A stretch of 64,000 nt of DNA from Uliginosibacterium sp. 31-16 (GTDB taxonomy: Bacteria > Pseudomonadota > Gammaproteobacteria > Burkholderiales > Rhodocyclaceae): NCBI RefSeq assembly GCF_030730865.1, contig NZ_JAVALZ010000001.1, positions 124,001 to 188,000 on the forward strand, given 5' to 3'. The position numbers and the translations under genes are program-made. Every line of letters begins with the position of its first letter. Positions within the stretch are counted from its first letter, which is position 1. Under the pieces are notes generated by a model. That model was not told where the DNA came from. It made no database searches and saw only the letters and a list, made by a program, of their open reading frames with translations. Shown piece after piece: positions 24,250 to 58,153 of this stretch.

Positions 24250-25224
24250 ATGCTCTCCAGCCTGTCACTCCTGCAAAGCATGGCGCTGAGCCTGCGCGGC
24301 GTGAGCAGCAATCCTGCCCGTCTGCGGCTGCGCAGCCATGCACGCGGCGCCATGCTCGGGCTGGCGCTGGGTGATGCGCTGGGTGCCACGGTGGAATTCC
24401 TGACCCCGCGCGAGATCCGCAAGCAGTATGGCCGACACGACCGCATCCGTGGCGGTGGCTGGCTGCGCCTGCCGCCGGGGCAGGTCACCGACGACACCAC
24501 CATGGCGTTTGCCCTGGCAGAAGCCTGGCTGCTGAACCGCCATGCCCCCTCTGACGAAGACTACGCCAGGGCCTTCGACACCTGGATGCGCGGCAAACCC
24601 GTGGATATCGGCAACACCGTGCGCCGCGGCATCGTGCGCTTTCGCAACACGGGCCAAGCCTGCATGCCTCTCTCGGAAGACGCCGGCAACGGCGCCTGCA
24701 TGCGCTGTGCACCGACCGCCCTCGTCCTGCTCGGCGCGCCCTCCGACACCATCGCCCGCGCCACGCTCTCACAGGCCCGTGTCACCCATCACCATCCCCT
24801 CACCGACGCCGCCACCCTCACCGTCGTCAACATGGTGCAGGCCGGCATCCTCGGCAGTGCCGCCGGCGCAGGCTTGCGCACCGTAATGGCCCAGGCCAAC
24901 CTGCTGGCACGCGAATTCCCCCTCTTCCGTTTCCGTGGCAAAGCCGCCGAGAATCCAAGCGGCTACATCGTCGACACGATGCGCGTGGTGCTGCAAGCCA
25001 TCGATCTGAACGACAACTTCGAGTCAGCCCTGATTCAGGTCGTTAATTGCGGCGGCGACGCCGACACCACCGGCGCGATTGCCGGCATGGTGATGGGTGC
25101 GCTGCACGGCGAAGCCGGCCTGCCCGAACGCTGGCTGCGCGACCTGAACCGGGACGCCTGGCGGCGCTGCATCGATTACGCGGACGGCCTGATCGAGCGC
25201 TCGCCAGCCTGGCAGCGCCTCTGA
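24250..25224 (+). CDS. draG: ADP-ribosyl-[dinitrogen reductase] hydrolase
   Basis: DraG removes ADP-ribose from the NifH arginine and so reactivates nitrogenase after ammonium or darkness/energy shock. The 324 residues show the family motifs GLALGDALGATVEF (about 38-51), TDDTTMAF (about 81-88) and NCGGDADTTGAIAG (about 265-278), whose Asp residues bind two metal ions. The start at 24250 follows nifO by 11 bp; the second ATG 10 codons later is possible. In R. rubrum draG sits with draT; here draT is 6.6 kb away on the other strand. Confidence 0.93.
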   Translation: MLSSLSLLQSMALSLRGVSSNPARLRLRSHARGAMLGLALGDALGATVEFLTPREIRKQYGRHDRIRGGGWLRLPPGQVTDDTTMAFALAEAWLLNRHAPSDEDYARAFDTWMRGKPVDIGNTVRRGIVRFRNTGQACMPLSEDAGNGACMRCAPTALVLLGAPSDTIARATLSQARVTHHHPLTDAATLTVVNMVQAGILGSAAGAGLRTVMAQANLLAREFPLFRFRGKAAENPSGYIVDTMRVVLQAIDLNDNFESALIQVVNCGGDADTTGAIAGMVMGALHGEAGLPERWLRDLNRDAWRRCIDYADGLIERSPAWQRL

Positions 25225-31781: not shown

Positions 31782-31849
31782 GAGAGCCGCACCTGACGTG
31801 CCTCTACGGGCACCCCCTCTGAAAAACAAGGCGGGATGCGGCTCTTCAG
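31782..31849. repeat. Stem-forming intergenic repeat, copy at draT end
   Basis: GAGAGCCGCA at the left pairs with ATGCGGCTCTTC at the right. The right arm overlaps the draT stop codon (31846-31848), so the repeat supplies the last base triplet of the gene. It lies at the convergent junction with the YXWGXW-repeat gene. Confidence 0.6.
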
Positions 31850-32811
31850 CCACCCTTTACACCATACACCCCACCGATCACCAGATATTCGCCCTCGCCC
31901 TGCAGCCTGCCGGGCAGCACTTCGGCGCAGCAGATGATCTTGGCCAGCGGTACCTCGGTTGCAATCACCCGGTCGCCGAACTCTCCCGCCCGCTCCGCAT
32001 CGCCGGAAAATGAATTCACGTTATTGAGCAGCACCAGCGTCTCGCCATCTTTCTGGCCCAGGAATTCGTGCGCTTCCCAGCGGTTCACGCCGCGATACAG
32101 ACGGAAGTGCGACAGGCCCGGATGACAGCGCGCCAGTTCCAGCTGCGTCCAGGTGTAGACAAGGTCAAGCTGGGATTCGAGCGCATTGGTGTTGTACAGG
32201 CCAGTCGCACGCTGCTCCAGATACAGGTTGTAAGCCTCGCCCGAGAAATCACGGATCGGCGCGCGATGGTGGCGTGGCAACAGGCCGAATCGGGATTCAG
32301 CCCAGGCCTTTAGCACCGCCCCTTCGACACTGTCGGCATTGAAATGCCAGCCGCGGATCAGCTTCAGATAATTGAGCTTGCCACGGTTCTTCGGCATGTC
32401 AGGCGCAAAGCCGGCGTCTTCAAGCGAATCCAGCCTGAAACACATCGACATGTAATCGTAGAAGAGCTGCACACGCTCCTCTGCAGTGTCCCGCAGATGC
32501 AGCATGCGGAAGAAATCGCGATGCAGCTCCGCCACCCCGTCAATCACCAGCGGAGCGGGATTTTTCTGAAAGGTGTGACTGCCCAGAATCACCGCCGGCA
32601 AGTTGCAACGGTTGATCGAAATCCGCGCCCAGGTCGGCAAGGTCGGATTGTCATGAGCGCCTTTCCCGCTGGCGCCATCTGCTTCAGGCGCTGCTCCGCG
32701 GGGATCAGCAACATCCCGGGGCGGGGCGGCATTTTTCTCGCACGCATTGTCATCATTCCGACATTGAGCAACGTCTTTGTCCCACGCCGCACTGCCGCAA
32801 GAGTCGGTCAT
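31846..32811 (-). CDS. draT: NAD+-dinitrogen-reductase ADP-D-ribosyltransferase
   Basis: DraT inactivates NifH by ADP-ribosylating one arginine when ammonium appears or energy falls. Family blocks are clear: WARISINRCNLPAVILGS, then MPKNRGKLNYLKLIRGWHFN, the RLYRGVN segment, NNVNSFSGDAERAGEFGD, and the C-terminal GEYLVIGGVYGVKGG. From the ATG at 32811 it has 321 residues, with a roughly 60-residue Asp/Ala/Cys-containing N-terminal extension; a start at 32880 is possible. It is next to the tad locus, not with draG. Its upstream DNA copies the nifH promoter region, described separately. Confidence 0.93.
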   Translation of the reverse strand: MTDSCGSAAWDKDVAQCRNDDNACEKNAAPPRDVADPRGAAPEADGASGKGAHDNPTLPTWARISINRCNLPAVILGSHTFQKNPAPLVIDGVAELHRDFFRMLHLRDTAEERVQLFYDYMSMCFRLDSLEDAGFAPDMPKNRGKLNYLKLIRGWHFNADSVEGAVLKAWAESRFGLLPRHHRAPIRDFSGEAYNLYLEQRATGLYNTNALESQLDLVYTWTQLELARCHPGLSHFRLYRGVNRWEAHEFLGQKDGETLVLLNNVNSFSGDAERAGEFGDRVIATEVPLAKIICCAEVLPGRLQGEGEYLVIGGVYGVKGG

Positions 32812-32861
32812 TTTTACAGTACTTCCTGCCGGACAAGGCTCAAAGGGTATTTGCGAGACGC

Positions 32862-32948
32862 TGGAACAGGCGTTCGACATGCGTTGCAAGTCGTCAGAAC
32901 CCGTACAGCTCCATAGCACGCAACACACATGCCTGAACCGGATCACGG
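32862..32948 (+). pseudogene. Degenerate copy of the nifH promoter and leader
   Basis: These 87 bases align base for base with 55574-55661 upstream of nifH, about 67 of 87 positions matching. The rightward -24/-12 element here reads TGGAACAGGCGTTCGA: the -12 has lost a G (TTCG instead of TTGCG), which breaks the GG-N10-GC spacing, so the nifH promoter copy is probably dead. The copy faces away from draT and no nifH coding sequence follows. Confidence 0.75.
32919..32934 (-). promoter_or_regulatory. Probable sigma-54 promoter of draT
   Basis: Read leftward, AGGCATG-TGTG-TTGCG has the GG-N10-GC spacing and a perfect TTGC at -12. The equivalent in the nifH leader (55633-55648) reads CTGCG at -12. 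The -12 lies 108 bases before the draT ATG at 32811. No TGT-N10-ACA site was found in the 130 bp upstream. Confidence 0.6.
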
Positions 32949-33013
32949 CCTCCAGGCTGGAACCGCCCGGCAGAGCGGCAAGTCAGCCCAAAACCGGATA
33001 CGCGCCTCGTCCC

Positions 33014-33042
33014 AGCAAAAAAGCGCGAGCAGCATCGCTCGC
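33014..33042 (-). terminator. Intrinsic terminator of the tad operon
   Basis: On the minus strand, GCGCGAGC-GATGCT-GCTCGCGC forms an eight-bp perfect stem followed by six T, 37 bp after the tadC stop. A textbook rho-independent terminator. Confidence 0.88.
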
Positions 33043-33078
33043 GCCTTGACTGGAATTCGCAGCCTTTGAACTTCCGCC

Positions 33079-34023
33079 TCAATTCAGCGAAGGCAGCAGT
33101 ACCCGGTAAATGTGGACGAACCCTGGGCCCATCAAAACCAGCAACAGCGACGGGAAAATGCAGAAGATCAGAGGAAAGAGCAGCTTCAGTGCGATCTTCG
33201 CAGCGGCTTCTTCAGCTCTCTGGCGGCGCTTGGTGCGCAGCATCTGGGAATGGATACGCAGCGTCGACGCGATGCTGGTGCCAAACCGGTCGGCCTGAAT
33301 GAGCATGCTCACCAGACCGTCGATTTCCTCCACACCGGTACGCGAAGCCAGATTGCGCAAGGCACGTTCACGATCACTACCGGCACGCAATTCAAGCCCG
33401 ACCAGGCGCAATTCCTCGCTGAGCACCTCGCTCTTCTGCTCCATATCCACGGCAACACGGCTCAAGGCCGCATCGACGCCAAGCCCGGCCTCCACACACA
33501 CGGTCATCAGATCCAATGCATCCGGGAAACTCTCGAAAATCTCCCGCTGACGCGTAGCGACCATGTGCGAAAGCACTGCATTCGGCAGGTAGTAACCGAT
33601 GGTGGCCACCAGCAACAGGAATAGCAGCAAGGGGGTCATCGGGAACGCGCGCGAGCCCATTGAAATCAGCAGATACGCAATCAGGGGGAACGCCAGCGCC
33701 AGCAAGGTCTTGGCACTGAAGAACACGATTGGCGCAGAGGGGCTGCGAATGCCCGCATTGAGAAAGCGCGTGCGAATGCCTGATTTTTCCCAGCCTTCAT
33801 CGGGCACAGAAAGCTTGCTCAAGGGCATGAACACCTTGGCAAGGCGCTCGTGCCAGTCATGTTTCTGTGGCTTTTTCAGCTCATCGTGAGCGAACGGATG
33901 AGCTCCCACCATTCGCAGGCGTTTGCGCGTCTCACTGGGTGAAAGCCTGCCCAGGAAAAAAGTGACCACACCGAATACGGCGACGAAAACCAGCGCCAGA
34001 AAAGTCATTTGTACGAGAGTCAT
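33079..34023 (-). CDS. tadC: Tad pilus inner-membrane protein TadC
   Basis: A 314-residue member of the GspF/TadC platform family. Transmembrane helices lie near the N-terminus (about 5-22), at 95-135 and at the C-terminus. The cytoplasmic T2SSF domain contains FPDALDLMTVCVEAGLGVDAALSRV (about 160-185) and FGTSIASTLRIHSQMLRTKRRQRAEE. With TadB it forms the membrane platform of the Flp pilus machine. Last gene of the leftward operon, 46 bp after tadB. Confidence 0.93.
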   Translation of the reverse strand: MTLVQMTFLALVFVAVFGVVTFFLGRLSPSETRKRLRMVGAHPFAHDELKKPQKHDWHERLAKVFMPLSKLSVPDEGWEKSGIRTRFLNAGIRSPSAPIVFFSAKTLLALAFPLIAYLLISMGSRAFPMTPLLLFLLLVATIGYYLPNAVLSHMVATRQREIFESFPDALDLMTVCVEAGLGVDAALSRVAVDMEQKSEVLSEELRLVGLELRAGSDRERALRNLASRTGVEEIDGLVSMLIQADRFGTSIASTLRIHSQMLRTKRRQRAEEAAAKIALKLLFPLIFCIFPSLLLVLMGPGFVHIYRVLLPSLN

Positions 34024-34069
34024 GATGCAAATCTCCTACTGGCCGGGCGGTAAAGAACCCGCACGGCGA

Positions 34070-35050
34070 TCAAACATGTATCTTGATGATTCGGGTCATC
34101 CACCAGATACCGAATGCCATCAAACACAGCGCACCGTAGACAAGCTTTATGCCAAAGGGGTCAGTCCAGAGAACTTTCAGGAACCCCGGGTTGGCCAACT
34201 GGATCATGACGCCCGCAGCAAACGGCAATATCGAGAGAATCCACGCCGACATCCGGCCTTCCGCAGACAGGGTACGGACCTCCCCCATCAGAACGAGACG
34301 CTGACGCACGATCGAAGAAATGTTGTCCAGCAGCTCGGCAAGATTACCGCCCGTCTCGCGCTGGATCAGGATGGCCACGACCAGATAACGCAGATCTCCG
34401 GTCGGCAGACGTGTCAGCAAGTTGAGCATGGCATCATGGACAGACACACCATAGTTGACCTCATCGAACAGCACCTTGAATTCACCACCCAGCGGGTCGC
34501 GCATCTCTTCACCCACCATCTGCAAGGCCGCCGGCAGGGCATGGCCTGCCCGGAGCGCACGCGACATCAGGTCAATCGCATCGGGCAGTTGCTGTTCAAC
34601 CATCGCCAGACGCCTTGAGCGAGCGTGCAGGACGTGAAACAAGGGCAACGCAGCCAGCACCAGACCAATCAGGAAGGCGAAAACAAGATTGTGAAGACTC
34701 AGCAGGATCGACACAAATCCGAGAACAAACAGCATGCTGGTGATGCCCACAAATTCGCCGACCGAAAGATTCAAGCCAGACTGCACCAACGCGCGGTCGA
34801 TGCTATGAATCCGGGGCAACAGAATCAGGAAGCTATCCAGCCCGCTCGACTCGCTCAAGGCACGCTGCTTGAGGATGGACAACTGGCTTTGCCCATGCGC
34901 TCCTGCCGAAGCCGCTCGCAGACGACGTGAAATACGCTGAGCCTCCGGACCACGGGTCGTGTTCCACCACATGAAAGCGCTTTCCAGTCCCAGCGCCACC
35001 GCGACAAATATCGCAACACCAAACATCAGGAAGACTGTATCGACCATCAT
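34070..35050 (-). CDS. tadB: Tad pilus inner-membrane protein TadB
   Basis: A 326-residue T2SSF-domain platform protein, paralogous to TadC. It has helices at about 8-26, 100-140 and the last 60 residues, and the domain motif LPDAIDLMSRALRAGHALPAALQMVGEEM (about 165-192) with ILIQRETGGNLAELLDNIS. It lies between tadA and tadC in canonical order, 17 bp after tadA. Confidence 0.93.
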   Translation of the reverse strand: MMVDTVFLMFGVAIFVAVALGLESAFMWWNTTRGPEAQRISRRLRAASAGAHGQSQLSILKQRALSESSGLDSFLILLPRIHSIDRALVQSGLNLSVGEFVGITSMLFVLGFVSILLSLHNLVFAFLIGLVLAALPLFHVLHARSRRLAMVEQQLPDAIDLMSRALRAGHALPAALQMVGEEMRDPLGGEFKVLFDEVNYGVSVHDAMLNLLTRLPTGDLRYLVVAILIQRETGGNLAELLDNISSIVRQRLVLMGEVRTLSAEGRMSAWILSILPFAAGVMIQLANPGFLKVLWTDPFGIKLVYGALCLMAFGIWWMTRIIKIHV

Positions 35051-35067
35051 CTCTACTCCTGAAAAAA

Positions 35068-36435
35068 CTATGCATAGCGTCGTGCAGGGTCAAACAGCGA
35101 ATCTGCCAGGTTGATACCGAAGGTCCGCAGACGCTCGCCGAACTTCGGTCTGACCCCGGTAGCAGAAAAATAGCCCTGCACCACTCCGGATTCGGACACC
35201 CCGGTTTGCCTGAAACTGAAAATCTCCTGCATGGTGATGACATCCCCCTCCATGCCGGTCACCTCCTGCAGCCCGATCACTTTGCGCTTGCCATCGCTCA
35301 GGCGAGCGACCTGGATCACCACATTGATGGCCGACGCGATCTGCGCGCGCATGATCCTCGGGGTAACCGACATCCCCGCCATCCCAAGCATGTTTTCAAG
35401 GCGCAGCAAACCGTCACGCGGAGAGTTGGCGTGAACCGTACTCATGGAGCCTTCATGGCCGGTATTCATCGCCTGCAGCATGTCAAAAGCTTCCGCACCA
35501 CGAACCTCTCCCAGAATGATCCGGTCGGGGCGCATCCGCAGCGCATTGCGCACCAGAGCACGCTGGGGGACTTCTCCCTTGCCCTCGATGTTTGCCGGAC
35601 GGGTTTCAAGGCGCACCACATGCGGTTGCTGCAGTTGCAACTCGGCGGCATCCTCAATGGTGATGATCCGTTCGGCGAGGGGAATATAACCAGACAGGAT
35701 ATTGAGCAGCGTCGTTTTGCCGCTCCCCGTTCCGCCGGAGATCAAGATGTTGATCTTGGCGCGTGTCAGACTCGCCAGAAGCTCGGCCATCTCCGGAATC
35801 AATGAGTTGAACTCGACCAGGTTATCCATGGTCAGCGGCACGGTGGAGAACCGCCGGATCGACAACACCGGTCCGTCCAGTGACAAAGGTGGAATGATGG
35901 CGTTGACACGTGACCCATCCTGCAGACGCGCGTCCACCATCGGACTCGACTCATCGATGCGCCGGCCAACGCGCGAGACAATCTTGTCGATGATCTTCAT
36001 CAGGTGCGCATCGTTGACGAAGCTCACCTCGGTACGCTCGATGCAGCCACCGCGTTCGACATAGACCTGGCGGTAATTGTTGACCAGGATGTCAGACACC
36101 GAAGCGTCAGCGAGCAAGGGCTCAAGCGGCCCCAGTCCCATCATCTCGTACTGCATGTCCCGGACCAGACTGCGCCGCTCCGCTTCATTGATGACGATGT
36201 TTTCTTCCTGAAGAATCGTCTCGACAAGGCTGCGCAGCTCAACAAGAAGATGGTCAGGCGTCATCTTTTCAAGCGCTTCCAGATCAATCCGATCCAGAAG
36301 CGTCTTGTGCATGTGGCTCTTCAGGTCCTGATAGGCCTGGGTGCTGCGCGCAACAGGTGGGCGCGGAGAGCTCGCTTCGGCAGATATTGGCGCCGAAACG
36401 GCATTGACCGCTTCAAGTCGTTCCCTGAGAGACAC
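35068..36435 (-). CDS. tadA: Tad pilus secretion ATPase TadA/CpaF
   Basis: A 455-residue hexameric ATPase that powers Flp pilus assembly. The Walker A motif [13 protein letters not shown] (about 233-245), Asp box [12 protein letters not shown], Walker B-type [15 protein letters not shown], and His box [19 protein letters not shown] are all intact. The N-terminal region has the CpaF/GspE-N fold with [15 protein letters not shown]. It starts at 36435 and is 50 bp after tadZ. Confidence 0.96.
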
Positions 36436-36485
36436 AACCGCCTCCGTAATTCTTCTTCTCTGCCTGCGTTTCTGATGCGATCAAA

Positions 36486-37649
36486 TCAGGAAAATACCCG
36501 CGACAACCAACCGCCACGGGTCGCCTCTTCTTCCGCTGCCGGAACAATCGCATGGGCCATATCGATCAACTCCTTGCTGAGCGGGTCCGTGCGTCGGCCC
36601 TTGATGATCGGAATGCCGAGATTCACCGAGGTAGCCGCTGCCTGATAGCTGTTTGGCAAGGTCATGAAAACCTTCAATCCGACCGTGCGCTCTATATCCG
36701 TCAGCGAGATTTCGCCACCTTTCTGGTAGCGATTCACAACCAGGTGGATCTGGTCCTGATGGTAGTCCAGCGAGCGGAATACGCTGATCAGGCGCTTGCT
36801 GTCGCGAACGAATGGCAGGGTCAGTTGCACGACGGGAAAGATCAGGTCTGCCATGTCCAGCGCCTGAAGAGTGATGGCATCCAGCGTGCGGGCCACGTCA
36901 ACGACAACGAAATCATATTTGCTGCGTGCCAGGCGGATGATGGCTTCCACATGTTCACGTTTCACATCCGGCGAGCTGGACGGATCGTCCGGCGAGGCCA
37001 GTACATGGAAGCCGGATTCGACCTCCAGCATGGCAGACGACAGAAACGACGCGTCCAGCCGATGGATTTCCCGCGCAACCTCCGCCACGTTGCTCGGCGG
37101 AATCTGATCGGAGACGAACATCGCTGCATCACCAAACTGCAGATTGAGGTCGATCAGCGCAACACGCTGTTTCCGCTCAGCCGCCAGCGCATACGCCACA
37201 TTCGCGGCAATGAAGGTTGCCCCGCTTCCACCTTTGCATGAAATGAAGGCCAATACCTTGCCGTCACCGCGCATGCCAAGAAGATGATTGCGCTTTTGCC
37301 GGATCCGGCCGATGGCCTCCTGCAAAGGCACACTGATCGCCGTCATGGGCAGAACCTCACGCACATTGGCGCGCATGGCCCGCATCAAAAAATCCACCGA
37401 GGTTTCGGTCGAAATCAGCAGCACATCAATATCAGGTCTGCGCTGGATCAAGATCTCCAGCGTGTCCAGACAGTCCGCGGTGGCCTGATCAATGATCAGC
37501 ACATCCGGGCCTCCACCATCGATGAACGCCGGCAGCTCCTCAACGCGCCAGCCACCGCCAGAGACTTCCGCCTCCGGATCCTTTTCAACAGCTGCGCGCT
37601 TGATCTCGGCGAAGCGCTGACTATCGTTGCAGAGAACCTTTATCTTCAT
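36486..37649 (-). CDS. tadZ: TadZ/CpaE-type pilus localisation ATPase
   Basis: The 387-residue protein has an N-terminal receiver-like domain (about 1-125, without the phospho-acceptor set being certain) and a MinD/ParA ATPase domain starting at CKGGSGATFIAAN (about 133-145), a deviant Walker A. It then has the switch regions FVVVDVARTLD and VNRYQKGGEISL. TadZ/CpaE proteins place the pilus machine at the cell pole. The spacing to tadA fits an operon. Confidence 0.9.
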   Translation of the reverse strand: MKIKVLCNDSQRFAEIKRAAVEKDPEAEVSGGGWRVEELPAFIDGGGPDVLIIDQATADCLDTLEILIQRRPDIDVLLISTETSVDFLMRAMRANVREVLPMTAISVPLQEAIGRIRQKRNHLLGMRGDGKVLAFISCKGGSGATFIAANVAYALAAERKQRVALIDLNLQFGDAAMFVSDQIPPSNVAEVAREIHRLDASFLSSAMLEVESGFHVLASPDDPSSSPDVKREHVEAIIRLARSKYDFVVVDVARTLDAITLQALDMADLIFPVVQLTLPFVRDSKRLISVFRSLDYHQDQIHLVVNRYQKGGEISLTDIERTVGLKVFMTLPNSYQAAATSVNLGIPIIKGRRTDPLSKELIDMAHAIVPAAEEEATRGGWLSRVFS

Positions 37650-37738
37650 GACGAGCTCTATTCAATCAAACACGATGCCTCCGGCACACGCCGTCCATGC
37701 AGATCGGCATGCGCCGATCTGCTGCTCCCCGCCTTTGG

Positions 37739-38029
37739 CTATCGAGTGCTGCCACCAGAGCCGCCACTGGAGAACGAACTACCCGTATCGGATTTCGGTT
37801 TGCGGAAGCTCTCGTGATAATTTTCCATCGCACCTTTGGCCGACTTGCTGTCCAGCCCGCTGACCGGATCACGATTGCGCGCAGCTTCTGGATTCACGAT
37901 CTGCTGCGCCTTGATGATGTGCAGTGAATCACCCATCTGATCATCCGTTCTGGGCGTGGTGGTTGCCGTACATGCAGTGAGGCTCGCCGCCGCGATGATG
38001 AGCATGCACCTAATCGAAAGTTGTTTCAT
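37739..38029 (-). CDS. Small tad-locus lipoprotein
   Basis: A 96-residue protein with a lipoprotein signal ending LTAC (Cys20), then a short charged region (DSLHIIKAQQIVNPEAARNRDPVSG) and a Ser/Gly-rich tail (about 78-96). It occupies the place between the secretin and tadZ where many tad loci have CpaD or a pilotin. The segment IVNPEAARNRDPVSGLD resembles small tad-linked lipoproteins, so an outer-membrane accessory role with the secretin is inferred. No TPR repeats, hence not TadD. Confidence 0.65.
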   Translation of the reverse strand: MKQLSIRCMLIIAAASLTACTATTTPRTDDQMGDSLHIIKAQQIVNPEAARNRDPVSGLDSKSAKGAMENYHESFRKPKSDTGSSFSSGGSGGSTR

Positions 38030-38044
38030 GTCTGGCTCCCGTCA

Positions 38045-39691
38045 TTACTTCAGATCTGAACCGCTCTTCGCGGGGTCCGGGTTGTTACGCGATGAGTCAT
38101 CATCGCTGCGTGAACCTTCCTGCTTTCCACCCATGATCATGTCGTAACGCGAGGGCGGCACATAGGCGTCCGTCGGCAGCGGATAATTCTCCGGCAATGG
38201 TTTGACGAGGTGCGGTGTGATCACGAATACCAGTTCCGAGCGATCATTCTGGAAGCTGGTGCTGCGGAACAATGCGCCAATCACGGGCAGCTCACCCAGG
38301 AAGGGGAAAGCGGCTATGCTCGAAGTCACGTTGTTCTTGATCAGCCCACCGATTGCGAAACTCTGACCGTCGCGCAACTGAACCGTGGTGCTGGCTCGCC
38401 GCGTCGTGAAGGCCGGCAGGATTGAAGTCCCCGAAACGGTAGACGCCGTGATCGCCACCCCTTGGGCGCTCAGCTCCGACACCTCCGGCGTGACCCGCAG
38501 GTTGATGCGGCCACCCGACAACACTGTCGGCGTGAACTTCAGGCTTACCCCGAACTCCTTCTCTTCCAGAGTGACCGATGTACTGCCATTGCTGTTCGAA
38601 GACACCGGGATGAAAATCTTGCCGCCAGCCAGGAAAGAACCTTCCTGACCGCTGATCGCCATGACCGTCGGCTCAGCCAGAATCTTCACCAGCCCATCCT
38701 GTTTCTGGGCATCGGAACTGACCGTGGTCATGTTGGTACCGGTCGCCGTTGAGGTGCTCCCACCTGAGGTTGAAACCCCACCCGGAACGGATCTCGAAAC
38801 CGTGTTGCTGCTATTGGATACCGATCCAGTCACCCCCAGTCCCACGCCTCCCGCCGCACCGGAAAGCTGGCCGGTCAGCAGGCCATTCCCGCCGAACAGG
38901 CCGGAGAAAAACCGCAGGGAGCCATTGCTAGACATCAGCGCACGCGTGAAATCGAGGCCAAACTGATCCAGCAGGGATTTGGAGATTTCCGCCACCTTCA
39001 CCTCCAGCATCACTTGCTGGGGAGCAGCCACTTCAAGCATGTTGATGACTCGCGGATTGTTGCTTGAAGCAGAGCTGCCGGTGCCGCGCACGTAGGCATT
39101 GGCAATCTCGACAACCCGGTCAACCGCCTCGGCATCGCGCACGGAGCCGGAAAGTACGACCGAATCGGCCGCTGACGTGATCTTCAGATCAGCCTCGCCC
39201 GGCATCAATTCCTTGAACGAAGCGCTCAATCCCGCCGTATCCATGCCCACCACGATGTCGAGCATGGTGCATAGCCCCGTGCGGTCGACCAGCAGCACAT
39301 TGGTTGAGCCGATTGATTTGCCCAGCACATAAATTTCAGTCGGGCTCAACAGCAGCACATCCACATCGGCTGCGCCTGTCCGCTGGTTCTGCTGTGCCGT
39401 CGTCCGCGACTTGTCGTCGTCGGTCTTGCTGTCCTCGCTGGGGCGCCCCACACGGGAATTCTGCGGATTGCCCAGCAACATCCTGGAAACAGCGTTCTGT
39501 GGATGGATCAGGCTGGATTTACCCACAGCGATCCTGACGACCTGCCCCATTTCCACGCGATGACAAGGCGAAGCACTGGCTGCCGGAGTTCTTGCAACAC
39601 CCGCTTTGCCCGGCTCAGCCTGAACAGCGCCACACGCAAGAACAGACGTGATCAGTGCAGCCAGAGCATGCAACTTGAATTCAGATGACAT
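38045..39691 (-). CDS. rcpA: Tad pilus outer-membrane secretin RcpA/CpaC
   Basis: A 548-residue secretin with a signal peptide (about 1-25). The N-terminal pilus-type N domain contains RIAVGKSSLIHPQNAV (about 51-66) and a BON-like domain with SVVLSGSVRDAEAVDRVVEIANAYV. The C-terminal secretin domain (about 225-500) has LAEPTVMAISGQEGSFLAGG and ends with FVITPHLVKPLPE. A Gly/Ser/Thr-rich stretch (about 265-330) fits the gate region. It lies 24 bp after cpaB. Confidence 0.93.
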   Translation of the reverse strand: MSSEFKLHALAALITSVLACGAVQAEPGKAGVARTPAASASPCHRVEMGQVVRIAVGKSSLIHPQNAVSRMLLGNPQNSRVGRPSEDSKTDDDKSRTTAQQNQRTGAADVDVLLLSPTEIYVLGKSIGSTNVLLVDRTGLCTMLDIVVGMDTAGLSASFKELMPGEADLKITSAADSVVLSGSVRDAEAVDRVVEIANAYVRGTGSSASSNNPRVINMLEVAAPQQVMLEVKVAEISKSLLDQFGLDFTRALMSSNGSLRFFSGLFGGNGLLTGQLSGAAGGVGLGVTGSVSNSSNTVSRSVPGGVSTSGGSTSTATGTNMTTVSSDAQKQDGLVKILAEPTVMAISGQEGSFLAGGKIFIPVSSNSNGSTSVTLEEKEFGVSLKFTPTVLSGGRINLRVTPEVSELSAQGVAITASTVSGTSILPAFTTRRASTTVQLRDGQSFAIGGLIKNNVTSSIAAFPFLGELPVIGALFRSTSFQNDRSELVFVITPHLVKPLPENYPLPTDAYVPPSRYDMIMGGKQEGSRSDDDSSRNNPDPAKSGSDLK

Positions 39692-39715
39692 GATTTTTAT
39701 CTCCGCTCATTTCAT

Positions 39716-40588
39716 TCAGAAACATTCGACGGATCGGCTGGTTCCGCGGATGATTTCCACACAGTCGCGCGACGCCTGCGCCACCGGCTTCGGAGCTGTG
39801 CTCGGAAGCGGCTTGCGCACCACGGCTTTCACCGGCGGCTGCACAATTACAGGTGCTGTCGGAGCGACCTCTTTCGGCGGATAAACCGTGAGCAAGGATT
39901 CCTTGGTTGCGCCAGAAGTCTGCAACGCCACCTGGTCGATCTGGTTACGCAACACCAGTGAAAGCGTTCCGACCGAGCGCGCCAGATCCAGCTTCTCGGC
40001 CTGCTCCGGCGTTACTTCAAGGGTGACCGCGTTGACCACCTTGGGCTTTGTTTCATCCCGCCCGGCCTCTTGCGCAACGGCCAGCACCAGGATGTGCTCA
40101 AGCACGATCTTCGAGATGGAACGATCCTTGTCGTTACTCTTGGATCCCTCTTCCATGGTGTTGACCATGATGTCCACAAAATTGCCTGGCAGCGCGAACC
40201 CCGCCACACCAATGACATCATTGACCCGCACGGTAATGGCACGCTTGCCCTCGCCCACCACGGCGGACAATCCACCCTTCGTCCCTTGTGGAGCGAGCTT
40301 TCCTTCGAGAACGACTTCGCCACGGGTGATGCTGGTCTTGGCCACCCGAGCTTCAAGATTCTTGGGGTCTTTGAAAACGCCGACCGGCTCGTTGCCTGCC
40401 GGCCAGGAGACCATCTGGATCATCTCCGGAGTAATCCGTGCGCCGAACTGGATGTCGACGGATGCGACGGCGACTTTATCTCCGCCGGTCTGACCTTTCT
40501 CGTGGATCCAGCGTGCAGCCAGCAATACCGCTGCCAGCCCCGCCAGTAAGGCCACCACGAGCATGACTACGCTTCGTGTGTTCTTCAT
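39716..40588 (-). CDS. cpaB: Flp pilus assembly protein CpaB/RcpC
   Basis: A 290-residue protein with an N-terminal membrane anchor (about 8-25) and an SAF domain (about 38-105: SVDIQFGARITPEMIQMVSWP), then the RcpC-like domain with AITVRVNDVIGVAGFALPGNFVDIM. The C-terminus is Pro/Val-rich and has one Cys-ending segment. First gene of the leftward tad operon; it stands divergent from tadE. Confidence 0.92.
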   Translation of the reverse strand: MKNTRSVVMLVVALLAGLAAVLLAARWIHEKGQTGGDKVAVASVDIQFGARITPEMIQMVSWPAGNEPVGVFKDPKNLEARVAKTSITRGEVVLEGKLAPQGTKGGLSAVVGEGKRAITVRVNDVIGVAGFALPGNFVDIMVNTMEEGSKSNDKDRSISKIVLEHILVLAVAQEAGRDETKPKVVNAVTLEVTPEQAEKLDLARSVGTLSLVLRNQIDQVALQTSGATKESLLTVYPPKEVAPTAPVIVQPPVKAVVRKPLPSTAPKPVAQASRDCVEIIRGTSRSVECF

Positions 40589-48017: not shown

Positions 48018-48716
48018 TCAGCCTCGATCCAGGTCATGTTCAGTGGCAAATGCGAACAGATCTATCCGGTTGCGCAGACCGAGTTTGTCGTAGATGGCGG
48101 TGAGGTGGTTGCGCAGGGTGTGTTCGCTGATGCCAAGGGCCTCGGCGATGACGATGCTTTTGGCCCCGCGGTTGCGCACGATGGCGCGGATGATCTCGCG
48201 CTCGCGCGCGGTGAGGCTGGCGATGCGACTGTTGCCCGCAAGGGCATCAGGCGTAGCGCGTGAGGCAAGCATGCCGACCATGCCCCCCGCGATCAGCGGC
48301 GAAGCCCAGAATTGCGCGGCATGCACATGCTCGATGGCTTGCAGCACGACGTCGGCGCCTTCGTCTTTGAGGACGACGCCGCGCGCGCCCGCAACAATTG
48401 CGGCCTGGTGCATGGCTGGATCACGGTCGCCAGTGAGGATCAGCACTTGCGCCTGACAGCTGCGGCGCAACTCGGGAAGACTGGCGAGGCTGTTCGTGCC
48501 GTTCAGGTCCAGATCAAGCACGATGACATCTGGCTGGCAGTCCGCCGCAACGCGGAGCATTTCGCTGCAGCTCGATGCGGTGGCGATGGACTGGAGACGG
48601 GGCTGAGCGCTTTCGACAAGACGCTCCAGGCCCCACAGGATGGCCTTGTGATCATCGACGATCATGACCCGGATGGGGCGGGGTTCCACTGTTTCGGCAG
48701 TGCTGGCGAGGGGCAT
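48018..48716 (-). CDS. NarL/LuxR-family response regulator
   Basis: A 232-residue two-component regulator. The receiver domain has MIVDDHKAILWG (acidic pair at the N-terminus), the phospho-acceptor Asp in VIVLDLDLNGTNS (about 65) and the Lys in VVLKDEG. The C-terminal LuxR helix-turn-helix reads LTAREREIIRAIVRNRGAKSIVIAEALGISEHTLRNHLTAIYDKLG (about 170-215). It has a GGAGG site. It pairs with the kinase 20 bp upstream. Confidence 0.92.
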   Translation of the reverse strand: MPLASTAETVEPRPIRVMIVDDHKAILWGLERLVESAQPRLQSIATASSCSEMLRVAADCQPDVIVLDLDLNGTNSLASLPELRRSCQAQVLILTGDRDPAMHQAAIVAGARGVVLKDEGADVVLQAIEHVHAAQFWASPLIAGGMVGMLASRATPDALAGNSRIASLTAREREIIRAIVRNRGAKSIVIAEALGISEHTLRNHLTAIYDKLGLRNRIDLFAFATEHDLDRG

Positions 48717-48736
48717 TTGTGGCCCTCCGAAAACAG

Positions 48737-50464
48737 TTAATTCAACGGGATCGTGACAGTTATCGAACAGCCACGGGGATCGATATCCACACGGGTTTCT
48801 CCCCCCAGCAGCGCGGCGCGCTCGCTGATGGAGCGCGGGGTGAAGGTCGGCAACGGAGGCTGGTTACCGTGTTCGTTACGTATCCGTAATTCAAGCACGC
48901 CTTCTTCACAACGCAGCGCTATCCAGGCCATGTGGGCACGTGTGTGGCGGCGGATGTTGCTGAGACCTTCAGCCACGAGATGGAACAATTCGTCGGCAAT
49001 ATGTCGATCCACGGGCAGGGTGCCCTGGATATCGACACTCACCTCAATCCCGAACAGCTGCCCGAAGCGCAGCGCCTGGCGCTGCACTGCGCTGGCCAGC
49101 AGTTCCCCACCCTGCCCTGAGCTGCCGCGCAGGCCGCTCACGACATCACGCATGGCGGCGAGTTCGGTGCTAGCCATGGCGAGCATGCGCTGCAGGTCTT
49201 CGCTGAGCGGATTATCCGGACCGGCCTTGCGTACCAGCGCTTCGACCGCGAACTTGAGCCCGATGTAGGGCTGGATCGCGCTGTCATGCAATGTGCGGCC
49301 AATCTTGGCCCGTTCGTTTTCGACCGCTTCGGTGGACAGGCGCTCAAGGAGCAGCGCGTTATCGATCAATGGGGCGATCTGCTCGGTCACGCGCATCAGA
49401 ACCTCCAGCCCGTGCGTACGCAGATGCCCGGATGCACTGCCGAGAATAAGGGTCATGTTGCCTACGCTGCGACAGCGTACCGGGGTGATCATCAGACAAT
49501 CCTGTTCGAGCAGCCTGGCGAGCTGCTCGAAGACAACAGGCTCCGGCATGCCCGGCAATTCGTCGCTGCCTGGCATGGGTTCATGATGCGTGCTGGAACG
49601 CCCGAAAAGATGGGTGCGCCGCCGGTGCAGGAAGGCATGTTCTTCACTCAGGCTTGTCACGCAGGCCAGCAGGGATTCCGCACTGGCTTCGGAGAGGCGG
49701 CTGCAGCCTTCGCCCTCTTCCCAGCACAGGGCGTGTTCGCCACCCTCGACATCGCGCATCAGCAGCAGTGCGCTTTGGGCATCGAATTCATGGCAGATGG
49801 GTTCCAGCAGCTTCGGCATGATGGCGTCAAACCCGCGGCGCGGATCGAGGCGCTCCACAAGATGGGTGGAGAAGGCATAAGCCCTGCGGCTATCGGCTTC
49901 GGCACGCGCCAGAACGGCCACCAGCGAACCAGTCACCAGCAAGGAGAGCGGCAACGCCAGCAAGGTAGGCCAGGAAATCCCGGGGGCACGCAGGCAGAGG
50001 ATGATCAGGGCCGCCGAACTGCTGAAGATGGCAACGGCGGTACTTTCGCCCACGCCACGCTGCCAGGAGGCGAACAGGACAGGGAAGAACAGGAACAGGA
50101 AGTAGTGGAAGCCGCCCGGCCCGGCCAGCGCGATGAGCAGCAGGAACCAGCAGCAATCCAGCCAGGGGAGGATTCTGAGTACGGGCAGGACACGCCCGCT
50201 GGCCGAAAACCATAGCAAGACCCCGGCATATACGCTGAAGCCCGCAATACCGGCAAACAGGTAGGTATGCGACGCGGCCTGCGTGTCGAGCATCAACTGG
50301 GCGGCAATGATCGCCAGGACGACACGCATGCTCTCGATCAGCCGGCGTTCATCGGTGAACAGGTCGGTGACGCGGGCACGCGCGGGCACGTCACTCCTCG
50401 CACTGAACGGTGTTCGCGCCCCCGACTCCTGTGGGTACGGCTTCGTCACAGATTCCCCTGGCAT
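48737..50464 (-). CDS. NarX/DegS-type sensor histidine kinase
   Basis: A 575-residue membrane kinase. About five to six helices (about 40-190) form an integral sensor, followed by a GAF-like region (about 215-370) and the HisKA_3 phosphorylation motif ERAKIGRTLHDSAIQPYIGLK (His near 390). The ATPase domain keeps the N-box AEGLSNIRRHT, but its G-boxes are weak (SISERAALLGGETRVDID). The start at 50464 is a best guess. It should phosphorylate the neighbouring LuxR regulator; a link to pilus control is inferred from position only. Confidence 0.85.
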   Translation of the reverse strand: MPGESVTKPYPQESGARTPFSARSDVPARARVTDLFTDERRLIESMRVVLAIIAAQLMLDTQAASHTYLFAGIAGFSVYAGVLLWFSASGRVLPVLRILPWLDCCWFLLLIALAGPGGFHYFLFLFFPVLFASWQRGVGESTAVAIFSSSAALIILCLRAPGISWPTLLALPLSLLVTGSLVAVLARAEADSRRAYAFSTHLVERLDPRRGFDAIMPKLLEPICHEFDAQSALLLMRDVEGGEHALCWEEGEGCSRLSEASAESLLACVTSLSEEHAFLHRRRTHLFGRSSTHHEPMPGSDELPGMPEPVVFEQLARLLEQDCLMITPVRCRSVGNMTLILGSASGHLRTHGLEVLMRVTEQIAPLIDNALLLERLSTEAVENERAKIGRTLHDSAIQPYIGLKFAVEALVRKAGPDNPLSEDLQRMLAMASTELAAMRDVVSGLRGSSGQGGELLASAVQRQALRFGQLFGIEVSVDIQGTLPVDRHIADELFHLVAEGLSNIRRHTRAHMAWIALRCEEGVLELRIRNEHGNQPPLPTFTPRSISERAALLGGETRVDIDPRGCSITVTIPLN

Positions 50465-50579
50465 GCTAAACGTGGCGGGCCAAACTGGCACCAGATCAAC
50501 TCATACAGTCTAGACCGCCATTTTTTCAGGTTCTGAGCGACCACCCTTCACGCCATGTTCACCACGCAGTGCAGTTACC

Positions 50580-52742
50580 TTACGGCGCCAGGGCATGCGA
50601 GGACTCGAAGTCGCGGATCTCCTGCAGCGCCTCGCTCAAAGTCATTTCATGGACGTTCAGAAGCTTGCCTACAAGATGCTCGGTCAAGGGTTTGAGAGCC
50701 GCCAGAACAGCCTTGGTTTCGCTGTACAGGCGTTCGTTCTGGGCTTCCATGATGTTGCGCGTTTCCTCATCCAGCGCACGGCCACCGCCGTTATCACGAT
50801 TGAGCGCGCCAAAATTGAGACGGGTCTTGCGATACATCCCCATCTCGCCGACAGCGTGGTGGAGCAGCTGCGTCACGCGAGTGATGTCGTTGTGCGCACC
50901 GTTGGTTGTGCCTTGCTCGCCAAAGAACAGCTCTTCATTGGCCATGCCCCCCAGCAGCACCCGCACGTCGTGTTCGATATCTCCTTTGGTCTTGAGCAGG
51001 TTTGCCCCTTTTTTATGAAAAACGAAACCCAGGGCATTGGTGCGTGGATTGGCTTTGAGTGAAATCTTGATGACCTTCATGTCTGCCAGAATTTTTCCCC
51101 AATCGTCGTGATTGAGCTTGCGCTCATAGTCGAGATCAACCAGAAAGTGCCCCCATTCATGCACGGCAATGATGCGGCGGTCACGCTCACGTTCCTGGGT
51201 GGTGCTGAGATTGACGTTCCCCAGTAGAACCCGTTCGGCGGCCTGCATCAGGGTTTTGGCGCCAATCATCTCGCCGGTTTGCACCGCCATGATGCCGGCC
51301 TGATTGACGATGGTTTCAAGGTCTGCCGGGCTGCAGCCTTCGGTCACCGCGATGTGTTGGCGAAGATCGAGGTCGGGCATCACTTTATCGGCGCGTTGCG
51401 CCAGATAGTGCTCAATGATCGCCAGTCGCTCTTCCCTGTTGGGCAGACGGAAATCCACTTTCATCTGGAAGCGACGCAGCATCGCTTCGTCCATCTGCAT
51501 TGTCTCGCTGTTGAAATTACTGGCAACGATCCAGATGATTTTCACGTCGCTCTTGCTGCGCACGCCATCGAGCACAGACAACAGCGTGTTGGCGGTGTCG
51601 TCATCGAATTTGTGATGGCGGCTGCCACGCTTCATGAAGAGGTCCTGCGCCTCATCAAGGAAAATGATGCAATGTTTGCGCCGCTTTGCCATGGCAAGAA
51701 TCCGGCTCAGGGTATTTGAACCACCGGCAACGAAGCCCGTTTCCAGATTGGCGGCGGAATGGAACAGAATCGGCAGATTGAGCTCTTTGGCGAGATAGCT
51801 GGCCAGCTTGGTCTTGCCGGTGCCTGCAGGCCCGCTGAACATCACATTGAAGGGTTTGCGGATGCCGTACTCGGCGTATTCGTCGCGACGCTGATACTGG
51901 TCCTTGATCTGGGAGACCTCTGCCTTGATGTCGTCCATGCCCACCAGTTCGTCGATGGAACCGTTGATCTGGGAGGGCTCGATGAACTTGAGCGACTTGA
52001 ACTGCCCCTTGAGCTGGAGATACAGAAAAGCCACCAGACTGAGCATCAGCGCGGCTGAGAGCACGCCACTGGCCGCACTTTTCCAGCCATCCTTCTCGGA
52101 CAGGGGGCGCGCGTCAGAAAACCGCAGATCCAGACGCTCGACCATCTGAAGATCTTCGGGGCCGAGCTCGCTGCGGGGAAGGAAAACGAGCTTGCCGCCC
52201 CACGATGCGGTGACAGCCTTGTCGGTGAAAATCCTGGTTTCCATGTCACCCGGGTAATACGCATACAGCTTCCCTTGCGACTCGATCAGGACAAAACGAT
52301 CCGACAGGTTCCACATCAGCGTTTTGTAGATCACAACGATGCGCTCGACGGGATGCGACTCCAGAAAGCTCAACACCGAACCGGCTCCAATGACCACAGG
52401 AAGATTACGCCCGAGAACTCCCGCGCCCTCGCCCGCCTTGCCATCAACGGCCATGGCCCTGACCTGTTCGGCCAGTGCGGCATTTTTCTGCATGAGAGTC
52501 AAAGAGTAGATGGCAGAGCCGGGAATCAGGATGGCCGCGACCAGCACGCCAAGCCTGACGAGGAGCGACTGGATCGCAAACCAGTCCTGCATCCGGCCGA
52601 TGAATTTCCTGATGGCGAACCACGGGCTCGTGGGACGAGCAAGTGGAGCAGTGCTGGGTTTGGATGAATTGGACACGGCAGTCCTTCGCTCTGTGAAACA
52701 TTGAGTTTCGGCGTCGGCACACATGGAGCCAGACTTGGCCAT
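50580..52742 (-). CDS. FtsH-like AAA+ membrane metalloprotease
   Basis: A 720-residue relative of FtsH. Two membrane helices (about 55-75 and 230-250) enclose a periplasmic region of about 150 residues. The AAA+ domain shows Walker A GPAGTGKTK (about 309-317), Walker B IIFLDEAQDLF and the second region of homology DEAMLRRFQMKVDF. The peptidase domain keeps HEXXH (AVHEWGHF, about 523-530) and the third ligand region GAHNDITRVT. The larger periplasmic part and divergent sequence show it is not the housekeeping FtsH. The start at 52742 has AAGGAGA 15 bases upstream; the TTG at 52775 is unlikely. Confidence 0.82.
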   Translation of the reverse strand: MAKSGSMCADAETQCFTERRTAVSNSSKPSTAPLARPTSPWFAIRKFIGRMQDWFAIQSLLVRLGVLVAAILIPGSAIYSLTLMQKNAALAEQVRAMAVDGKAGEGAGVLGRNLPVVIGAGSVLSFLESHPVERIVVIYKTLMWNLSDRFVLIESQGKLYAYYPGDMETRIFTDKAVTASWGGKLVFLPRSELGPEDLQMVERLDLRFSDARPLSEKDGWKSAASGVLSAALMLSLVAFLYLQLKGQFKSLKFIEPSQINGSIDELVGMDDIKAEVSQIKDQYQRRDEYAEYGIRKPFNVMFSGPAGTGKTKLASYLAKELNLPILFHSAANLETGFVAGGSNTLSRILAMAKRRKHCIIFLDEAQDLFMKRGSRHHKFDDDTANTLLSVLDGVRSKSDVKIIWIVASNFNSETMQMDEAMLRRFQMKVDFRLPNREERLAIIEHYLAQRADKVMPDLDLRQHIAVTEGCSPADLETIVNQAGIMAVQTGEMIGAKTLMQAAERVLLGNVNLSTTQERERDRRIIAVHEWGHFLVDLDYERKLNHDDWGKILADMKVIKISLKANPRTNALGFVFHKKGANLLKTKGDIEHDVRVLLGGMANEELFFGEQGTTNGAHNDITRVTQLLHHAVGEMGMYRKTRLNFGALNRDNGGGRALDEETRNIMEAQNERLYSETKAVLAALKPLTEHLVGKLLNVHEMTLSEALQEIRDFESSHALAP

Positions 52743-53041
52743 GCGTGATGGACGCGTCTCCTTTTCCAGGCGCAACCAATCTGCTCAGGGTTTGCCAGCC
52801 CTCGCGCCAGGTCAGGTTGCAGCGTTCAGCCTGTGGTCTCTTCTGGCGGTCGCGGGGCCAGGTGCGCAGAAAACGAAGAGGACGATCAGCGAAAGGGCGT
52901 AAAAAAGGGCGTAAAACCTGTGCCTGGATCTTCTCAAAGCTTAGTGGATCGATGACGCGGGAGCTTGCCTGGTCTGCCCACCAAGGCAGTCATGCGCATG
53001 CGGAGTTCTTCCCTTTGCCATCGCCAGCGTCCCGGGATGGG
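52743..53041. other. Intergenic region upstream of the FtsH-like gene
   Basis: Nearly 300 bases between two leftward genes. I see no gene, no clear promoter and no terminator beyond a GAAAGGGCGTAAAAAAGGGCGTAAAA direct duplication near 52890-52915. Confidence 0.4.
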
Positions 53042-55027: not shown

Positions 55028-55400
55028 GAGATTTCGTCATGGCCGGGCATGACTCCAAATGGTTTAACGGGTATTCATGATTTGTCGTGCTTATCCGGGT
55101 CGCTATTCAGCTCCTGACATGAAGCAAGGAAGGACTCTGCACGGAACCGCGCCGCATCTTTCCGGAAAGTTATCAAACAGTCCGGCGAGTCACCGCAATG
55201 CATAGCAATTTACTGTAGTAAGCACGCGCCAAAGTTCAATTGCCCAGGCCTGTGTGTACAGGAGAAAGCCGGCTTCGTTGATGCTTGGATGTCATCGCTC
55301 CGCCCGCCTGATCAATGCTTGCTCATGCTTATTGATCCGGCCCTGAACTTTGCGCCCCCACAAACGTTCGTACCGGGCGGCCGGTAAAACCGGCTGTGAG
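55028..55400. other. Intergenic region with an orphan terminal-repeat end
   Basis: About 370 bases without a gene. At about 55329 stands TTATTGATCCGGCCC, the end sequence of the 239-bp elements, followed by GAACTTTGCGCCCCC and an AACGTTCGTACCGGGC module like those near the pilin genes. The draT remnant begins directly after it. Confidence 0.5.
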
Positions 55401-55404
55401 AGGT

Positions 55405-56564
<1,160 letters not shown>

Positions 56565-56589
56565 TCCGCACCGGATCTGTTTGACGTGC

Positions 56590-56614
56590 CGTTACCCCGT
56601 CAGACGGGGTAACG
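56590..56614 (+). promoter_or_regulatory. Strong hairpin between nifH and nifD
   Basis: CGTTACCCCGT-CAG-ACGGGGTAACG is an 11-bp perfect stem with a three-base loop and no U-tract. At this position such stems are known to stabilise nifH mRNA or partly limit read-through, giving more NifH than NifDK. Confidence 0.8.
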
Positions 56615-56680
56615 CAGACACAAAGCTGTTCAACGCTTGTGCCCCGTGGCGAGCTAGAGCCCGGAGCAAAGGAGAATCAA

Positions 56681-58153
56681 ATGTCTGAGCTCACCCGCGA
56701 GCAAGCCCAGGCCCTCATCGAAGAGGTGCTGGAGGTTTATCCCGAGAAGGCCAAGAAAGACCGGGCCAAACACCTGATGGTCAATGACAAGACCATCGAG
56801 CAATCCAAGAAGTGCATCACCTCGAACCGCAAGTCGGTGCCGGGCGTGATGACCCAGCGCGGCTGCGCCTACGCCGGTTCCAAGGGCGTGGTGTGGGGTC
56901 CGATCAAGGACATCATCGACATCTCGCACGGCCCGGTCGGCTGTGGCGCCTACTCGCGTGGGGGCCGCCGCAACTACTTCTCCGGCACATCCGGGGTGGA
57001 TTCGTTCTGCGACATCAACTTCACCTCCGATTTCCAGGAGAAAGACATCGTCTTCGGTGGCGACAAGAAGCTCGCCAAGCTGATCGACGAACTGGAAGGC
57101 CTGTTCCCACTCTCCAAGGGGATCTCGGTGCAGTCCGAATGCCCGGTCGGCCTGATCGGCGACGATATCGAGGCCGTCTCCAAGAAGAAGGCGGCAGAAA
57201 TCGGCAAGGTCATCGTGCCAGTGCGCTGCGAAGGCTTCCGCGGCGTGTCGCAATCGCTGGGCCACCACATCGCCAACGACGCCGTGCGCGACTGGATCAT
57301 CTCCAACCGCGACGACAAGGCCTTCGAAGGCACACCGTATGACGTCGCAATTCTTGGCGACTACAACATCGGCGGTGACGCCTGGGCTTCGCGCATCCTG
57401 CTTGAGGAGATGGGCCTGCGCGTGGTTGCGCAATGGTCCGGCGACGGCACCCTCACCGAAATGGAAAACACCCCGAAGGTGAAGCTGAATCTGCTGCACT
57501 GCTACCGCTCGATGAACTACATCGCGCGCCACATGGAAGAGAAGTACAACATCCCCTGGCTGGAATACAACTTCTTCGGCCCGACCAAGATCAAGGAGAG
57601 CCTGCGCGAAATCGCCTCTCACTTCGACGAAAAGATCCAGGAAGGTGCCGAGCGAGTCATCGCCAAGTACACGCCGGCCATGGACGCCATCATCGCCAAG
57701 TTCAAGCCGCGCCTGCAGGGCAAGAAGGTCATGCTCTACGTGGGTGGTCTGCGTCCGCGTCACACCGTCGGTGCCTACGAAGATCTGGGCATGGAAGTGA
57801 TCGGTGCTGGTTATGAATTCGCGCACAACGATGACTACGACCGCACCATGAAGGAAATGAAGGACGCCACCCTGATCTATGACGACGTCACTGGTTATGA
57901 GTTCGAAGAATTCGTCCGCCAGCTGAAGCCGGATCTGATCGGCTCGGGCATCAAGGAAAAGTACGCCTTCCACAAGATGGGCGTGCCTTTCCGCCAGCTC
58001 CACTCCTGGGATTACTCCGGCCCGTATCACGGCTTCGACGGCTTCGCCATCTTCGCCCGCGACATGGACATGACCGTGAATAACCCGTGCTGGGGCATGC
58101 TCAAGGCGCCCTGGCTCAAGGATGACGCCGAAGGCGAACTGAAAGCCGCTTAA
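56681..58153 (+). CDS. nifD: NifD, nitrogenase MoFe protein alpha chain
   Basis: The 490-residue alpha chain holds FeMo-co. P-cluster cysteines appear in [18 protein letters not shown] and [11 protein letters not shown]. The FeMo-co ligands are the Cys in [11 protein letters not shown] and the His in [15 protein letters not shown]. Length and sequence are those of the Mo enzyme; no VnfD/AnfD signature is seen. An AAGGAGAA site precedes the ATG at 56681. Confidence 0.99.

Follow-up and report, generated by a model that had tools for sequence, protein, structure and literature searches.

The window examined here, by which we mean the whole 64-kb stretch of DNA from Uliginosibacterium sp. 31-16, contains nifH (55683-56564, plus strand; Pfam Fer4_NifH, E 9.7e-133 for the enclosing ORF) and an intact draT (31846-32811, minus strand) for a 321-amino-acid dinitrogenase reductase ADP-ribosyltransferase, which was identified by its translation and by Pfam DRAT PF07357 (E 2.9e-93 for the enclosing ORF, with positions 1-255 of the 256 in the profile matched). 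A segment beside draT, designated J' (32735-32953, plus strand), is colinear with 55448-55667 beside nifH; in a blastn comparison of 31800-33100 with 55000-57000, 140 of 221 positions were identical on the same strand (E 7e-18), and a second colinear same-strand match joined 32601-32663 to 55401-55461 (47/63 identical, E 1e-7). Both the colinearity of the DNA upstream of draT with the nifH leader and the alignment of the draT N-terminus with a remnant upstream of nifH had been claimed in an earlier, sequence-only reading of this DNA, and both are borne out by these matches. No third comparable place was detected by blastn in the 64-kb window, and when 32812-32960 was compared with the whole genome from which it comes, two places only were found, the second being 77% identical over 86-87 bp.

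The sequence-only reading had staked its claim on this similarity being better than that of any pair of sigma-54 regions, and it is. The draT-side and nifH-side 150-bp leaders gave a local alignment score of 48, whereas 2000 leaders shuffled in steps of two bases reached at most 19 and the draT-side leader scored 8-13 against 18 nifH leaders from other genera (including Formivibrio); this indicates true homology of a nifH-draT junction rather than generic sigma-54 likeness. The draT-side leader scored 46 and 44 against the leaders of two relatives, G185 and G011, and 16-31 against seven other leaders from the genus and from the genus g8. Although -24-like elements occur in both regions, the explanation that we are seeing merely the likeness of two sigma-54 control regions is left with almost no probability by the difference between 48 and 8-13 and by the extension of the homology into the draT coding sequence. 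By sequence comparison, the two places are homologous copies of one nifH-draT junction.

On the nifH side, the -24/-12 promoter of nifH (TGGCACAGCCGTTGC, 55575-55589, plus strand) is intact and has the form GG-N10-GC. Upstream of it lies a 5' remnant of draT (55401-55530, minus strand, the upper border being approximate), in which the aligned start codon is lost; a 36-letter peptide can still be read on the minus strand, TGA (55431-55429) standing in place of a conserved Trp codon, and no draT homology was detectable in 55290-55400 (0.93 of shuffles reached the score). The remnant contains a TGT-N10-ACA element (55461-55476), the predicted NifA upstream activator site of nifH, and despite the decay around it this element still lies 114 bp from the nifH promoter, the spacing to -24 seen in relatives. 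From the unchanged site and distance we infer that the remnant has been kept as a nifH enhancer; it is thus probably a working control element to which NifA would bind, and not a mere fossil. A former draT-facing sigma-54-like site (55634-55647, minus strand) has its TTGC changed to CTGC.

Two further features of this side may be recorded. The DNA between the neighboring GGDEF gene and the draT remnant (55240-55400) contains palindromes, for example gatcaatgcttgctcatgcttattgatc, and could be the end of a mobile element. In the nifH leader (55591-55682), a GTCAG...CTGAC pairing, possibly a stem in the 5' UTR, is kept in 9 of 10 junctions, with compensatory changes at two pairs in G156 and two pairs broken in G120. 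A conserved RNA hairpin was considered as the cause of leader conservation and rejected, as the individual folds disagree and the consensus fold has nine pairs, two of them with one compensatory case each.

On the draT side, the open frame of draT itself contains a TGT-N10-ACA element (32748-32763), again a predicted NifA upstream activator site. The nifH-facing -24/-12 element (TGGAACAGGCGTTCG, 32862-32876, plus strand) is broken: compared with TGGCACAGCCGTTGC at 55575-55589, it has lost the GC of the -12 element, just as the sequence-only reading described (TTGCG to TTCG), and no nifH follows it. The 60 bases that follow 32953 gave no detectable nifH coding remnant, the score being reached by 0.205 of shuffles. 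The draT-facing sigma-54-like site (GGCATGTGTGTTGC, 32920-32933, minus strand), recognized by alignment with relatives, is intact. Such a site (GG-N10-GC with TTGC) occurs at the aligned place in seven of nine junctions from the genus and g8, and a tenth junction, that of G120, has the site as judged by eye; it is absent in G122 and G229, both of which have the pair intact, and none of the 18 leaders from other genera has it at the corresponding position. A sigma-54 promoter that faces draT and acts on it is a prediction of ours. A lack of response to N2-fixing conditions, reported for draT in Azoarcus olearius BH72 (PMC8467165), counts against this reading. A sigma-70 scan of 32780-33100 gave no promoter, which is a weak test, since hardly any were obtained from shuffled sequences (mean 0.0, sd 0.2). 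Between the end of TadC and draT, the minus-strand sequence of 33015-33050 resembles a terminator, having a G+C-rich inverted repeat and then a run of six T, although it was not listed by the scan.

These element states modify the picture of reciprocal decay that had been drawn for the two copies. That the nifH copy kept nifH and lost draT is correct, for only a decayed 5' end of draT with a lost start and the Trp-to-TGA change is left there; that the other copy kept draT is equally correct, whereas its supposed loss of nifH is not supported, the leader alone being detectable at that place. Losses are present in both copies, but they are not symmetrical: the nifH-facing element lost its GC, and the draT-facing site changed only from TTGC to CTGC. 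As read from the sequence, the states are compatible with complementary loss in two copies, with the loss being asymmetric. Likewise, the description of the locus as a fossil holds for the decayed 5' end of draT and fails in so far as the remnant carries a predicted NifA enhancer at the usual spacing.

The ancestral order is indicated by the relatives. Our genus sample comprised eight genomes, seven besides that of the window species; six of these seven have a main-type nifH (at least 84% identical to that of the window), and in all six draT is directly divergent from nifH and adjoins it, while G209 has neither a main-type nifH nor draT at the thresholds used. Among the genus genomes sampled, the two genes are apart in the window species only, with 23 kb between them. 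The split is thus derived in the window species, and the divergent ancestral state proposed from the sequence alone is upheld by this synteny comparison. In G185 and G229, the genes next after draT are related to genes 31131 and 28006 of the window, and the window draT keeps both neighbors, as well as draG on its side of the split (matched stretch 24328-25203, plus strand; NCBIfam TIGR02662; G000:C1:148328-149203). Therefore, the separation was brought about by intervening material and not by draT moving away.

Counted from nifH, the order in the window is junction, draT remnant, a GGDEF protein, an AAA/M41 protein, a histidine kinase, a response regulator, tad genes to TadC, junction, draT, 31131 and 28006. 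The GGDEF and AAA/M41 genes beside the remnant occupy 50580-55027 and the regulator and kinase genes of the tad block 48018-50491, both on the minus strand; the tad/Flp pilus block itself (33079-40588, minus strand) was recognized by profile matches for CpaF, CpaE, the secretin and CpaB, and by gene order together with T2SSF-type matches for TadC and TadB. In G011, the order is nifH, junction, draT, kinase, regulator, a set of tad genes with TadC among them, a TPR protein (which we label TadD from its position), other genes and draG, so that the kinase and regulator stand directly behind draT and the tad block, which in the window lies between the junction copies, is on the far side of draT. 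The AAA/M41 and GGDEF proteins had no match at the thresholds used across the 260 kb surrounding nif in G011, and the window genome has no clear relative of the TPR gene found after TadC in that species (best E 2.7e-9, 30% identity over 135 residues); the tad block of the window thus ends at TadC, beside the second junction. In G074, the tad block is on a different contig from nif. CpaF of the window, the only CpaF in its genome, is 80% identical to that of G011 and 84% to that of G074, so that the block does not seem to have been acquired recently from a G011-like donor; its histidine kinase is only 51% identical to that of G011. Separately, the AAA/M41-like protein (50580-52775) has matches in G011:C7 and G074:C12/C18, each with one in-frame TGA, and several partial copies in G074.

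The location of a predicted NifA site within draT is not peculiar to the window. According to the parts of PMC2820453 drawn on here, NifA sites have the form TGT-N10-ACA, usually lie at least 100 bp upstream of the start and accompany a -24/-12 element. Of 123 draT-positive genomes in the family, we examined the draT loci of 80, which include all of the 30 best-scoring draT matches, and added Formivibrio citricus (L046), giving 81 loci in which the window's own draT is not included. A divergent nifH was present in the fetched flank of 66 loci, 56 of the main type and 10 of a second type (nifH 75-81% identical to that of the window), and the other 15 had no nifH there. TGT-N10-ACA was found upstream of nifH in 64 of the 66 pairs, against a chance of 6.2% per 320-bp upstream window; because the loci share ancestry, these counts are not independent events. 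It was present in 54 of the 56 main-type pairs (missing in L158 and L163) and within the draT open frame in all 54, a site being counted as "within" if a possible in-frame start (ATG, GTG or TTG) is found upstream of it. The spacing to -24 was 113-115 bp in 46 of the 56 main-type pairs (114 bp in the window) and 95-136 bp in eight more; in second-type pairs the site was 85-97 bp away, and four of the ten pairs had it in a possible draT frame. In the window as a whole, TGT-N10-ACA is no commoner than expected by chance (8 against 8.28), so the weight of the argument rests on position and conservation rather than on the motif.

A stronger test than the motif counts is provided by synonymous codons. 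The site falls in the draT codons for a C-R-x-x-D-K/N motif, which was absent from 4 of 58 scanned draT genes (L163, L189, L168 and L185). In the 54 genes with the motif, its Cys codon was TGT without exception, whereas of the 127 Cys codons that come later in these fetched parts of draT, 107 were TGC and 20 TGT. This contrast shows that the DNA, and not the peptide alone, has been held constant.

In nine of the 15 genomes whose draT locus had no nifH in the flank, including G066, nifH is divergent on the same contig at a distance of 1.6-3.8 kb, and in the other eight of the nine it is of the second type (73-76%); two more of the 15 (G059 and G109) have a second draT, outside the 81-locus sample, beside a main-type nifH. 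Both main-type draT genes among the 15, those of G066 and G277, lack the N-terminal motif. TGT-N10-ACA lies at the usual spacing before nifH of G066, where by eye another open frame ends just upstream, and about 12 bp further from the promoter before nifH of G277. With main-type draT and nifH 3.8 kb apart in G066 (L168, L193) and 4.6 kb apart in G277 (L185, L195), these genomes are possible independent cases in favor of an enhancer in draT. On balance, and by a narrow measure, we favor the view that the nifH enhancer lies within the draT frame across this whole bacterial family, locking nifH and draT together by an overlap of regulatory and coding sequence; on separation nifH would keep the enhancer, as a dead piece of draT in the window and as a bare site in G066, whose draT has another N-terminus, and the window would be a case in which the overlap was resolved by duplication of the junction.

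How old the two copies are can be approached by comparison with G185 and G011. Over the junction (279 columns), the window copies are 62% identical to each other, the nifH-side copy is 71% identical to G185 and 67% to G011, and the draT-side copy 65% and 64%, respectively; the remnant N-terminus is 76% identical to G185 against 67% to G011 (63 columns). Four-taxon site patterns are weak, with 8 sites grouping the window copies, 12 pairing the nifH side with G185 and the draT side with G011, and 7 for the third arrangement. The maximum-likelihood tree of the junction does not discriminate: sister window copies have a log-likelihood 0.88 lower and are not rejected (AU p 0.235), and grouping of the draT-side copy with G011 is not favored by substitutions (3.37 lower, p 0.322). 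The clearest character in the sequence is an 87-bp (29-amino-acid) in-frame insertion in the draT N-terminus (32656-32742, minus strand), recognized from the alignments, which among the 11 junctions aligned is common to the intact window draT and G011 only. The two insertions are identical at 48 of 87 positions, while codon shuffles gave a mean of 27.7 and none of 20,000 reached 48. At this point the draT remnant is of the short form, and so are the eight other relatives aligned. The copies thus either separated before the insertion arose or were brought together when two lineages recombined; that the remnant lost exactly this stretch by deletion is possible but less probable.

In its body, draT is 84.2% identical to G185 and 80.4% to G011. 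For comparison, carB (used from seven of eight genomes; rpoB was found in only four) places the window species, G011 and G185 nearly equidistant at 83.7-84.4% (83.7% and 84.4% for the window), and with such equal distances a hybrid draT is possible at most. The leader search gave one match in each of the four relatives matched (G011, G074, G122 and G185), and it revealed no other genus member with two junctions. The claim that the junction was duplicated therefore stands as regards the existence of two homologous copies, and not as a simple recent event within the lineage, given that each copy resembles G185 or G011 at least as much as it resembles the other copy, that the insertion present in intact draT and G011 is absent from the remnant and that a tad block lies between them. 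Elsewhere, G185 (C174) and G229 (C2) carry a second, distant draT that is 37-39% identical to that of the window, the one in G229 sharing its contig with a second nifH of 64% identity, and a search of plasmids with DraT gave one distant Rhodobacter match.

We consider it fairly probable that an interlocked nifH/draT pair was split by a tad block flanked by two junction copies that are old or come from two diverged lineages. In the ancestral divergent pair, the NifA enhancer of nifH would have lain inside the first codons of draT, and, in the genus and g8, a sigma-54-like promoter facing draT inside the nifH leader; with control elements interlocked in this manner, neither gene could leave without part of the other. 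After the pair was split by the tad-pilus block between two junction copies in direct orientation, the body of draT would have disappeared beside nifH, with the enhancer-holding 5' end kept at its usual distance from the promoter, and beside draT the nifH-facing promoter would have been broken and the draT-facing site left intact. Each gene probably kept a copy of the control region because the DNA switch of nifH lies in the coding sequence of draT.

As to how the copies arose, old duplication or recombination fits better than recent duplication. A recent tandem duplication of the junction-draT-tad unit in the window lineage followed by reciprocal loss, which is the sequence-only proposal with the tad block added, would account for the direct orientation of the copies and for the order nifH-J-draT remnant-tad-J'-draT, as expected from a doubled G011-like order after loss, and sister copies are not rejected by the junction tree (AU p 0.235). 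We nevertheless regard it as improbable: the copies are 62% identical to each other against 64-71% to G185 and G011, the remnant lacks the 87-bp insertion common to G011 and intact draT, the genome has a single CpaF, and it has no clear relative of the G011 TPR gene located after TadC. The similar depth of all copies and the insertion common to intact draT and G011 would also be explained by an old duplication in the ancestor of the window species, G185 and G011, of which G185 kept the copy without the insertion, G011 the copy with it and the window both; the single leader match in each of G011, G074, G122 and G185, with no other two-junction member seen, makes this rather unlikely too, though less so than a recent event.

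The history that we favor, albeit tentatively and at somewhat less than even chances, is a recombination between two draT alleles, one G011-like and one G185-like, around the tad block. In its Campbell-type form, a circular or tandem G011-like donor (J2-draT2-kinase-regulator-tad) would have recombined inside draT of a G185-like recipient, leaving a hybrid draT at either end; the hybrid next to nifH would then have decayed. Such an integration predicts the gene order of the window, and it agrees with the intact draT, in which a G011-like N-terminus with the insertion is joined to a body slightly closer to G185 (84.2% against 80.4%), with the remnant N-terminus being nearer G185 (76% against 67%, 63 columns) and with downstream genes that match G185. 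Any reciprocal hybrids would be incompletely preserved, as the draT body is only slightly G185-like and the 3' part on the nifH side is gone; the body similarities are, moreover, close to the species background given by carB (83.7% and 84.4%), and the histidine kinase (51%) and CpaF (80%) are distant from those of G011.

Whichever route was taken, the window contains a real and unusual nifH/draT split with a duplicated junction. Gene order in nif clusters is usually put down to co-regulation. The predicted nifH enhancer inside draT offers a concrete and testable physical reason for draT staying beside nifH, and the variable yet motif-bearing N-terminus of DraT might be explained as a by-product of a constraint on DNA. 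The window would then represent a case of a broken lock, both halves of which are still readable. In practical terms, anyone who relocates, deletes or refactors draT in bacteria of this kind could take away the enhancer of nifH without knowing it.

Duplication-degeneration-complementation of a bidirectional promoter is a general concept, and the window resembles it in that a single control region is present twice and each copy serves a different gene; it differs in that the copies seem old or recombinant and the loss is asymmetric. The literature searched gave no bacterial example of such promoter subfunctionalization. That literature also gave no description of a NifA site inside draT, although a prior description is possible, since Oetjen and Reinhold-Hurek (2009), on the Azoarcus draT system, was outside its coverage. 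Compared with NifA/sigma-54 nifH promoters as presented in the consulted parts of PMC2820453, the same two elements occur here, with about 114 bp between the upstream activator site and -24, but the activator site lies in the divergent draT coding sequence or in its decayed remnant. In Pseudomonas stutzeri A1501, the same parts of that paper describe a divergent nifH-pnfA pair with a sigma-54 promoter and an upstream activator site in the intergenic region (PMC2820453); there, as here, the gene divergent from nifH shares the nif control region, whereas the partner is pnfA and not draT, the activator site is intergenic and, in those parts, no duplication is described. Further counterparts are the divergent nifH-draT pairs of the family and of Formivibrio citricus (L046), which have related genes, a related junction and the activator site in the draT open frame, as in the window; in those bacteria the two genes are adjacent, whereas in the window the pair is split and a second copy of the junction is present.
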